Assembly: GCA_014800785.1 (NCBI GenBank)
Contig: JAAVFK010000013.1
Location: 1-32,648 of the forward strand
DNA: 32,648 nt
Direction of reading: 5' to 3'
From: Bacteroidales bacterium
GTDB lineage: Bacteria > Bacteroidota > Bacteroidia > Bacteroidales > Muribaculaceae
Shown here: piece by piece, positions 22,730-25,802 of the stretch
How positions within the stretch are numbered: the stretch's first letter is position 1
Layout: every line of letters begins with the position of its first letter
Made by a program: the position numbers and the translations under genes
The notes under the pieces: generated by a model
Database searches by the model: none
Told to the model about the DNA's origin: nothing
The model's input: the letters and a program-made list of their open reading frames with translations, nothing else

Positions 22730-22770
22730 AGACCCAATCCCACAAAGAATGTTAGAGCGGTATATTTTCG
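22730..22770 (+). repeat. Degenerate third copy of the 37-bp repeat
   Basis: The stretch beginning AGACCCAATCCCACAA and ending GGTATATTTTCG matches the left end and adjoining bases of the element at 23289 (AGACCCCACCCCGCAA, ending GGTGTATTTTCG), in the same orientation and with a small internal gap. With the element at 23289 it brackets the Rpn-type fragment. The remaining bases up to 22892 show no gene. Confidence 0.6.
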
Positions 22771-22892: not shown

Positions 22893-23279
22893 TTACAGTT
22901 GGCGCAGCTCCTCCGGGGTGATATTGAGAATGGAGGCTATCTGGGAGTCGGTGAGTTCGAGTTCCTTCACGTTCGCGATAGCTTCTTTCAAAGTCTGGCG
23001 TCGCCCTTCGGCGCGTCCTTGTACACGTCCTTCGGCGAGACCTTCCTCACGGGCTTCCTTTTTTGCGTATGCCATCTGGTTATGGCGGTCGCGGGCGTAT
23101 TTGAGTTCGCGTTCGCAAGTCAGCAGGTCATCGTTCGAGAGATTCGCTACCGAGGCGATTCTTCCGAGTTTATGGAATATCGGGGTGTTGAAGGGCATCG
23201 TATCCATATTCTGTAAATTTTTAATGCAGTAAATCCATCTTTCCATATCGTCTTTGCATTCTTCCTCTTGCTCTCGCAT
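22893..23279 (-). pseudogene. Rpn family recombination-promoting nuclease, C-terminal fragment
   Basis: The 128-codon - strand frame is the C-terminal third of an Rpn/PDDEXK_2 family protein, a DNA nuclease group spread as transposase-like genes in Bacteroidales. It starts at 'DMERWIYCIKNLQNMDTMPF', which follows the nuclease domain in full-length proteins of about 300 residues. It then has the helical 'ERELKYARDRHNQMAYAKKE', the glycine/arginine/glutamate repeats 'EGLAEGRVQGRAEGRRQ', and the helix-turn-helix-like end 'QIASILNITPEELRQL'. The PD-(D/E)xK catalytic part is missing. Upstream, the family sequence can be followed only to the end of the inverted-repeat element at 23289, where a TAG closes the frame. 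The gene was therefore cut exactly at that element. Confidence 0.82.
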
Positions 23280-23288
23280 CGGCAGAAG

Positions 23289-23686
23289 CTAAGACCCCAC
23301 CCCGCAAGAAATGTTAAAGCCAGGGCGGTGTATTTTCGAGGGAATTTCGTTTATCTCGGAGGGAGTGATGTGAGCATTGCTTCATATTGAGTTGTTTTTA
23401 TAGGTATTCAGCGATTTCCAATTGTGACCGGAGAGATAGACGAAATTCATCGGAAAGGCACCGGGCAAAGAATTCTTTTATATAGGAATGGTAGCAGGAA
23501 GTTAAAAAATCAATAAATGTCCCTCAGCAGCAAGAGATGAAATATTACCACTAGACCGCAGATGTGCCCCGCCTTCGGCCTTTTGGTTCAGTCGCATAGC
23601 CCGCTATGCTCCTTCACACTGCAAGGCCAAATTCGGGGCACATCTGCGACCCTGGCTTTAATATTTATTGTGGGATGGGGTCTTAG
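23289..23686. mobile_element. MITE-like element with 37-bp terminal inverted repeats
   Basis: The left end (23289-23325) begins CTAAGACCCC and ends AAAGCCAGGG. The right end (23650-23686) is its inverse complement with four mismatches in 37 bases. The 398-bp unit contains no convincing gene. It does hold a large hairpin at 23557-23648. To its left an Rpn-type gene is cut exactly at the border, and to its right an ArdA-like gene starts exactly after it. A degenerate copy of the end is at 22730. These features fit a small non-autonomous element, or the two ends of a collapsed composite element; no transposase is visible and no clear target-site duplication was found. Confidence 0.55.
23557..23648. 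repeat. Long nested hairpin inside the inverted-repeat element
   Basis: CGCAGATGTGCCCCG (23557-23571) pairs perfectly with CGGGGCACATCTGCG (23634-23648). Inside it GGCCTT pairs with AAGGCC and, at the tip, GCATAGC pairs with GCTATGC around CC. Flanking bases (AAATATTA / TAATATTT) extend the symmetry outwards. The result is a nested, near-continuous stem that could fold in DNA or RNA. Confidence 0.8.
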
Positions 23687-23944
23687 TCAAGAACACTACT
23701 GCGGAGAGTGGGACAGCGAAGAAGACTTCGCCCGGCATATTATCGAGGAGTGCTACAATCTTGAATTGGAAATCGCTGAATACCTATTGCATAAACTCAA
23801 TATGAAGCAAAAGATGATGGGTAGCCTCGCCAACTACTTCGACTATGAAGCGTTCTTGCTGTGCAAGCGACAAGTCGATAACGGACGCGCTTCATGTGGG
23901 ACTACAACATGGGAGCGAACGGTCACGTATTCCGCCGAATCTGA
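23687..23944 (+). pseudogene. ArdA-like antirestriction protein remnant
   Basis: After the element border the frame reads 'SQEHYCGEWDSEEDFARHII', a middle helix, then 'MMGSLANYFDYEAF'. A frame change near 23870-23890 gives 'FMWDYNMGANGHVFRRI' and a stop at 23942-23944. This is the arrangement of the C-terminal domain of ArdA proteins: an acidic GExDSxEDFA motif, then YFDYEAFxRDL and a final GHVFRR. ArdA proteins mimic DNA and block type I restriction, and are carried by conjugative elements. The N-terminal half is missing and a frameshift is present, so the gene is dead. ORF 23562-24029 of the track joins part of it to the element by chance. Confidence 0.68.
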
Positions 23945-23993
23945 CCCTCAGACCACTCCAAAAAATGGGCTTTTGGCTAGGTCAAGCCTCGCC

Positions 23994-24027
23994 GAGCTAA
24001 AGGTTCCGAAAGGGAAGGCTCTTTTTT
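23994..24027 (+). terminator. Terminator-like hairpin with T run
   Basis: GAGC pairs with GCTC, with an inner TTCC-GAAA-GGGAA stem-loop carrying a GNRA tetraloop, followed by six T. It lies 50 bases after the ArdA-like stop and directly before the end of the convergent - strand gene. Confidence 0.55.
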
Positions 24028-24622
24028 AGAATGTATTATTTACAATATTATGGTACTCTATTTTAGCCTTGTCGTTGGCAGCCACATCTCGATAACTTAA
24101 TTCAACTAATCCACCATTCCCTCTTGGGGCACAAGATATTCTTACTTCACCAATGACTTTATTACTTGCGTTTTTTATATAATAATACAACGCAAACATT
24201 TCTTTAAATTTATTGGACCCATCATGAATATAACCTAAATCCGACTTATTCTCTTCACGATGTCCTCCATATTTTTCTTCCAATACTTTAACAAGAAGCA
24301 TTACATTTCCCTGTAAATCGGAAGAATGGGAATGTGTGCAAATCGTTCTAAATACGGTATTCGTTTCCCGGGATGAAAATGCCCAAAAATACCATTTTTC
24401 TGAATTTATGAAAGTGCTACCCCAATATCCGTTACAAATGTCTGAATTATAAATTTCATCTGACTTACTCCTGTAATATTTAGAATCCTCTCCCTTACAA
24501 AAATCTTTCATAAAAGTGGCTACATTCGTTCCAAAGGTGGCACCACTAAAACGAATATTATTTTGTGCATATATCGTAGCAAACGATATAAGGCACACTA
24601 TTATTAATAGTATTTTCTTCAT
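24026..24622 (-). CDS. Small secreted protein of unknown function
   Basis: A 198-residue protein with a clear signal peptide, 'MKKILLIIVCLISFATIYAQ', with cleavage after A19 giving an N-terminal Q. The mature part has 'FSGATFGTNVATFMKDFC' near the start, a middle section rich in Ser/Thr/His, and an end with 'GEVRISCAPRGNGGLVELSY'. Single-domain Bacteroidales periplasmic proteins with the opening 'F.GxxFGxxxxxF' are common, but I cannot name a function. It has its own promoter on the - strand about 32 bases upstream of the start and no co-directional neighbour, so it is a stand-alone unit within mobile debris. The frame is intact, unlike most of its neighbours. Confidence 0.8.
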   Translation of the reverse strand: MKKILLIIVCLISFATIYAQNNIRFSGATFGTNVATFMKDFCKGEDSKYYRSKSDEIYNSDICNGYWGSTFINSEKWYFWAFSSRETNTVFRTICTHSHSSDLQGNVMLLVKVLEEKYGGHREENKSDLGYIHDGSNKFKEMFALYYYIKNASNKVIGEVRISCAPRGNGGLVELSYRDVAANDKAKIEYHNIVNNTF

Positions 24623-24737: not shown

Positions 24738-25802
24738 ATGCCTAATATCGCTTACAACATATCGCTTAAAGGCTAAGTCGGAGGCATGGACTTCGACCGC
24801 TCAAAGGTTGACAAGGAACTTGTCAAAAACGATGACAAGGAGGTAAATGTGCTGATCGACAGACTCGGCGGTTCTCTTGCAACCGATCTGTCTATCTCCG
24901 TCGCTTTCCGCAATCACGGCGATGTTGCCGTGCATTTTGTCGGACTAAATGCTTCTGCCGCCACAATCGCTTCACTCGGTGCGGCTCACATCTCCATTGA
25001 CCGCGGCGGAATGTATCTCGTCCATAAGTGCTCCACCGCCTTCTTCGAGTGGGGCACTATCAACAGCGACCCGTTCGATACTCTCATTGCCGACTGAGAG
25101 AAGATTAAGGCTGACCTTGACAAGCTCGACCTTAATGTAGCCCAACTCTATGCCGCCAAGTGCCGCAAATCGGTGACGAATCTGCTCGCACTTATGAAAG
25201 TCGGCGGTTGGCTAACCGCTAAGGAAGCTCTCGACTGGGGCTTCGTGGACGAGATTACTGACCTTGCCGACGAACAGGCTCCAAAACTCACAGACGCTAT
25301 CGCTTCCGCTATGGCTAATGCCGGTATGCCGATACCGAACATTTCCATATCCGACTCCGAGAAGGAGTCGGCGTTAAGCAAGTCCCTCGCCGAACTCACT
25401 TCGTTCTTTCGACCTAATTCACCCACCGTTTCCAATACCATTCAGACCATCATGCACAAGACCTAAAAATTCTTGTCGGCTATCCTTGCCGACAAGCCCC
25501 TAGCCGTGACCGACGGCAAAGCCTCCGTGACCGAGGCTCAGCTTGACTCCATCGAAGCTCCTCTCGCCGATAAAGACAGAATCGCCAATGAAAGGCAGCA
25601 GAAGATTGACGCTCACGAAGCGACAATCCGCGAGAAGGATGCGACTATCGCTGACCTTCAGGCGAAACTCGCCAAGAAACCTGCCGAAGAATCAAAGCAG
25701 GTCGTTGACAGCGGCTCGAAAGGCGAGTCCGCCGACAAGACCGAGACTGAGATTTACTGCGATACAGTCAACTCCGCCCGAAAACTCTTCAACGAGGTTT
25801 AA
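24738..25802 (+). pseudogene. Phage ClpP-like head maturation protease fused to coiled-coil region, broken
   Basis: One frame of 355 codons encodes a prophage S14 (ClpP-like) protease of Bacteroidales type. 'INSLGGS'-like 'LIDRLGGSLATDLSISV' comes first, followed by 'VGLNASAATIASLGAAHISI' with the catalytic-serine region, 'MYLVHKCSTAFFEWG' with the histidine, and 'GGWLTAKEALDWGFVDEI'. The C-terminal part is a charged coiled-coil ('KDRIANERQQKIDAHEATIR', 'LQAKLAKKPAEESKQVVD') that would serve as a scaffold. Stops interrupt the frame at 24774 (TAA), 25095 (TGA) and 25464 (TAA). In phages it cuts itself and the capsid during head assembly. The capsid gene start follows after 50 bases. The tracks at 24786, 25173 and 25473 are pieces of this one gene. 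Confidence 0.88.

Follow-up and report, generated by a model that had tools for sequence, protein, structure and literature searches.

An IS5-type MITE in Muribaculaceae genomes carries two homologous, inward-reading subterminal hairpins

We analysed a stretch of 32,648 nucleotides (the window) from the genome of a Bacteroidales bacterium of the Muribaculaceae (contig JAAVFK010000013.1), in which positions 23292 to 23683, on the forward strand, constitute a MITE of an IS5-family insertion sequence (IS): it is short (392 bp), noncoding and multicopy, it is bordered by terminal inverted repeats (AGACCCC...GGGGTCT), and its ends are as in two full-length relatives, L111 and L114. According to our main reading, to which we assign a probability of roughly 0.8, this is a non-autonomous element that would have lost the transposase gene by internal deletion from an IS5-family IS and would be mobilised in trans by the DDE transposase of that parent, inserting at T-W-A with a 2-3-bp duplication (TA or TNA). 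It has kept its terminal inverted repeats along with a pair of homologous subterminal hairpins, both of them structured on the strand that runs from the nearer end into the element.

The preliminary description placed the borders of an inverted-repeat element at 23289 and 23686. The inverted repeat itself was recovered, with arms at 23289-23325 and 23650-23686 complementary at 33 of 37 positions; the outermost CTA and TAG turned out to be target-like flank, and alignment with other copies delimited the strict element, with the left terminal inverted repeat at 23292-23325 (forward strand) and the right one at 23650-23683 (reverse strand). Together with the outermost base of the element, the flanking TA reads TAA on the left (TA at 23290-23291) and TTA on the right (TA at 23684-23685). 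Hairpin A (23326-23463, forward strand) reads inward from the left and scores 75.8 bits against model R2 despite being interrupted at its tip by a 45-nt insert (23380-23424, forward strand), while hairpin B (23553-23650, reverse strand) reads inward from the right and scores 105 bits against model R1. The insert belongs to a second dispersed repeat, is absent from other copies of the MITE, whose canonical length is about 348 bp, and makes the window copy atypical among the copies of its genome. The long hairpin noticed earlier was borne out by folding (-82.2 kcal/mol for the element DNA, against -45.6 +/- 4.0 for shuffled sequence; z = -9.1). As had also been proposed, the element has no protein of its own, the only called open reading frame (ORF), 23562-24029, being a read-through of its right half into the neighbouring ArdA fragment.

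Both neighbours lie outside the element and are truncated at its borders. On the left is the 3' fragment of an Rpn-type (PDDEXK_2) gene (22893-23279, reverse strand), which by Pfam scan corresponds to the C-terminal third of PF12784 (profile 159-229 of 229); on the right is an ArdA-like gene fragment (23685-24029, forward strand), whose PF07275 match starts at profile position 97, a few bases from the border. The truncation of both genes was thus upheld, and the cut of the ArdA-like gene, initially described as exact to the base, is located within a few bases. Similarly, the degenerate third copy announced at 22730 does belong to the same repeat family (81% identity to the first 47 nt of the end) and is a decayed left-end remnant (22730-22770, forward strand) rather than a full copy. 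Beside the ArdA fragment are short ORFs and, at 24786-25466, a weak Clp-protease-like ORF fragment scoring under the curated cut-off, which suggests a region of decayed mobile or prophage genes.

Multicopy dispersal is evident at several levels. The genome of the window holds about 10 copies of the element; some 7 full-length copies were recognised, besides partial copies and lone ends, and several lie at contig ends. DNA matches to the repeat were found in 67 of the 111 genomes of the genus. A pattern scan with the tip of hairpin B retrieved 31 GTDB contigs, from metagenome-assembled genomes and isolates named by their depositors as Muribaculaceae, Bacteroidales, Porphyromonadaceae, Prevotella or Bacteroides. 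Among these is the cultured Muribaculaceae isolate RIAY01. Carriage on plasmids or phages was considered and rejected, with no match of the repeat in PLSDB and none of the hairpin B tip in IMG/VR. Two side observations concern genome G000: about 4 kb adjoining an element copy is seemingly present on two contigs (C33:180-4140 and C34:1-3956, with flanks common to L010/L015 and L061/L062) and another flank is shared by contigs C40 and C48, reflecting either assembly duplication or strain variation; and several lone end repeats (L056, L057 and L058, among others) begin at a gene stop codon or a few bases past it.

Among 47 delimited copies, a T is found two bases to the left in 46 and an A two bases to the right in 45. 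Empty sites were obtained by searching for the joined flanks in other species and aligning the results, and they demonstrate target duplications of 2-3 bp (TA or TNA) for three copies: the empty site of L100 (L236) has one TAA, located precisely where the flanks meet, with the joined frame open across it, those of L107 in two genomes (L241 and L242) have a single TTA, and comparison of L172 with L234 indicates a 2-bp TA duplication. The length of the duplication rests on these few empty sites: the two flanks of a copy share the middle base of TNA in just 27 of 47 cases, which for A/T does not clearly exceed chance (Fisher p = 0.22), so that insertions duplicating 2 bp and insertions duplicating 3 bp both seem to take place. 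With several copies in the genome, a genus-wide distribution, common borders and empty sites, the earlier suggestion of an uncharacterised MITE family holds; the literature consulted included no paper on Muribaculaceae MITEs.

The parent was identified among the longer relatives. L111, an element of 1261 bp, has the same type of ends, and its hairpins A (left) and B (right) enclose a 261-aa ORF encoding an IS5-family DDE transposase (NF033580, 142 bits with a cut-off of 110; PF01609, 2e-22), and L114 is a second full-length element of 1283 bp with TGA at either side. Seven intermediates of 423-958 bp (L104, L107, L126, L128, L129, L132 and L139), most of them with transposase remnants (kept in relatives of 423-666 bp), lead down to the 160-bp copies at two loci (L102 and L103), which consist of the ends and hairpin A only. 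This size series is one of internal deletions of the usual MITE kind, and there is good support for an IS5-type transposase as the enzyme that moves the MITE.

The preliminary description raised the possibility of mobilisation by Rpn-type nucleases, an idea that could draw on the Rpn fragment abutting the window copy and on another copy (L093) sitting inside an Rpn gene. That these proteins are the transposase of the element is now hardly credible, as it is the IS5-family DDE enzyme that is encoded between the ends. A PF12784 profile search was positive in 76 of the 111 genomes of the genus, and none of 32 Rpn loci examined had element ends within about 1.5 kb, so that the ends do not flank intact Rpn genes; furthermore, three repeat-rich genomes (G005, G049 and G052, with 7-12 repeat matches each) have no PF12784 match. 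From both observations, the Rpn link is one of adjacency only, with the Rpn gene as target or bystander.

The joining of the Rpn fragment to the ArdA fragment at the window copy may have arisen through recombination between two element copies, or through a deletion that ended at the element; the arrangement is probably the product of one of these events. No recognisable transposase copy was found in the genome of the window (assembly 91% complete), and the copy, which looks orphaned, is therefore probably immobile. The 45-nt insert has a counterpart nearby at 23766-23810 (reverse strand), in frame within the ArdA fragment. The insert could stem from the neighbouring ArdA gene by template switching during replication, given that it matches 23764-23810 in inverted orientation at 42 of 47 positions and that a private C common to both window copies points to a possible local copying step. 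Such an origin is very doubtful, and we rejected it as the source of the insert, because ArdA homologues (L256, L257 and L259) lack the segment and the unit is dispersed: a non-palindromic repeat of 45-48 nt with sharply bounded homology and a consensus of about AATTGAAAATCGCTGAATACCTATRAAATMAACNCAATATGAAGCAAA, it occurs at unrelated places in 17 of the 111 genomes of the genus (loci L261-L280), once in frame inside the ArdA gene (inverted relative to the insert) and once inside the MITE hairpin. On the same grounds, both window copies of the unit look inserted.

The two hairpins, of about 94 nt (A) and 97 nt (B), lie directly inside the respective ends. RNAalifold analysis of 29 copies revealed changes on both sides with pairing kept in 24 of 36 pairs of hairpin A and in 23 of 32 pairs of hairpin B, and a further count gives 23 of 33 for A and 23 of 32 for B, counts that do not represent independent events because the copies are related; 96.6% (A) and 96.3% (B) of alignment cells pair under the named structures. 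Covariation scores of 0.587 (A) and 0.534 (B) were reached by none of 500 shuffles (means of 0.225 and 0.216), and the signal was lost when partners were slid by 1-3 columns (score at most 0.153). Beside the tip stem, the facing inner GA/GA dinucleotides are invariant in 58 of 58 hairpins. As judged from these alignments, the hairpins are under compensatory selection.

Conservation is also strand-asymmetric. On the inward strand G.T outnumbers A.C by 75 to 8 in hairpin A and by 105 to 9 in hairpin B, against 12 to 7 in the end repeats; prediction of the structure on that strand favours G.T somewhat, and folding of the outward strand served as a control, the outward alignments reaching only -21 and -10 kcal/mol versus about -46 inward. 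Individually, the inward strand was the more stable in 41 of 41 A hairpins and 40 of 40 B hairpins (81 of 81). The two hairpins are homologous, since the covariance model built on A recognises B as well, on the inward strand (49.6 bits in L111). A motif, AGGTAAYTT, is conserved in many copies on the inner side of both hairpins, on the inward strand (alignments A2 and A3); a promoter reading of it was discarded, as no box upstream looked convincing on visual inspection.

Across the family, the hairpin B model has matches in 163 of 297 Muribaculaceae-type genomes, representing 20 of 30 genera; spread beyond the family was rejected, with just weak matches (E of about 1e-4) in 4 of 393 genomes drawn from the order. 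Of 20 family-wide loci inspected, 17 lie within elements that measure 315-1120 bp and have inverted repeats at their borders; one of these (L309) contains, by eye, a 257-aa IS5-like ORF, and in all 20 hairpins the inward strand is again the more stable. The end sequences of these elements are quite different, e.g., TTAGAGCTTGTTTAATAATAAATG or TAAGAGGCTGTTTAAAAATA, and the hairpins are thus conserved where the ends are not. A known RNA family was ruled out, as Rfam 15 covariance models gave no match at the hairpins other than sub-threshold chance ones. We regard it as nearly an even chance that the hairpins represent a new class of structured nucleic acid, modular and inward-reading, with an invariant tandem-GA core, located at both ends of Muribaculaceae IS5-type elements and MITEs; a hairpin that outlives changes in the end repeats would, within such a class, interact with a conserved host component (RNA polymerase, ribosome or RNA-binding protein).

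Concerning their role, we tentatively propose, at somewhat less than even odds, that the hairpins are RNA structures that would shield the element from read-through transcription of its neighbours. Transcription entering from either neighbour would produce an inward RNA forming the hairpin, each hairpin would protect its end, and the one on the B side, which lies within the 5' leader of the transposase gene, would protect that gene as well. The inward-strand structure at both ends fits RNA from transcription entering the element, and shielding of ends and transposase gene is the simplest reading. Two results count against it: gene orientation around 62 copies was not biased (of 124 flanking ORFs, 54 are directed at the element; p = 0.18), and no U-tract directly follows the hairpins, for which reason ordinary intrinsic termination was dismissed.

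The main rival to an RNA shield, which we consider rather unlikely, is that the hairpins act in transposition as single-stranded DNA or cruciforms, bound for instance by the transposase or a host protein. Sequence does not separate RNA from single-stranded DNA, tandem G.A pairs are stable also in DNA, and a role in transposition would agree with hairpins that are mirrored at both ends and retained in MITEs without a protein, including the 160-bp copies with one hairpin; however, the excess of G.T over A.C (180 to 17) is unexpected for a double-stranded cruciform, and IS5-type DDE transposition is not known to involve single strands. More improbable still is that the hairpins are functionless and that palindrome correction, in which the template is switched from one arm to the other, keeps the arms similar: this process gives paired changes without selection, but it would erase G.T pairs and GA/GA mismatches, both of which are retained, the inner GA/GA in every hairpin aligned.

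The parent IS would be closest to the IS427- and IS1031-type groups of the IS5 family, with which it has the DDE transposase (NF033580/PF01609) in common. Duplications of 2-4 bp are listed for IS427-group elements (PMC3281130), a range that covers the duplications at the empty sites of L100, L107 and L172. Compared with these groups, the elements described here stand out by long end repeats (about 37-45 bp) and by a covarying 95-nt hairpin on each side of the gene, between it and the end. BrickBuilt and MITE239 of Porphyromonas gingivalis (PMC4596501) are Bacteroidales MITEs with IS5-family ends, strong predicted stem-loops and no Rfam match, all of which they share with the present MITE; BrickBuilt differs in having internal 23-nt tandem repeats and 4-bp duplications, and a covarying hairpin pair is not mentioned in the sections consulted. 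Structures in transposase mRNA leaders are documented for ISPpu9 and IS200 (PMC8450116 and references therein), and we propose an analogy in which an RNA structure at the IS end would control transposase expression; the present hairpins differ from those structures in being a mirrored pair, one per end, and in persisting in elements that lack a transposase gene.

Taken together, an identified parent IS replaces the Rpn-nuclease guess, and a family-wide set of MITEs comes to light in a major gut lineage; what these MITEs conserve best is a strand-specific folded hairpin rather than the end to which the transposase binds. Should the hairpins work in read-through RNA, these small DNA elements would bring ready-made RNA insulators into host operons.
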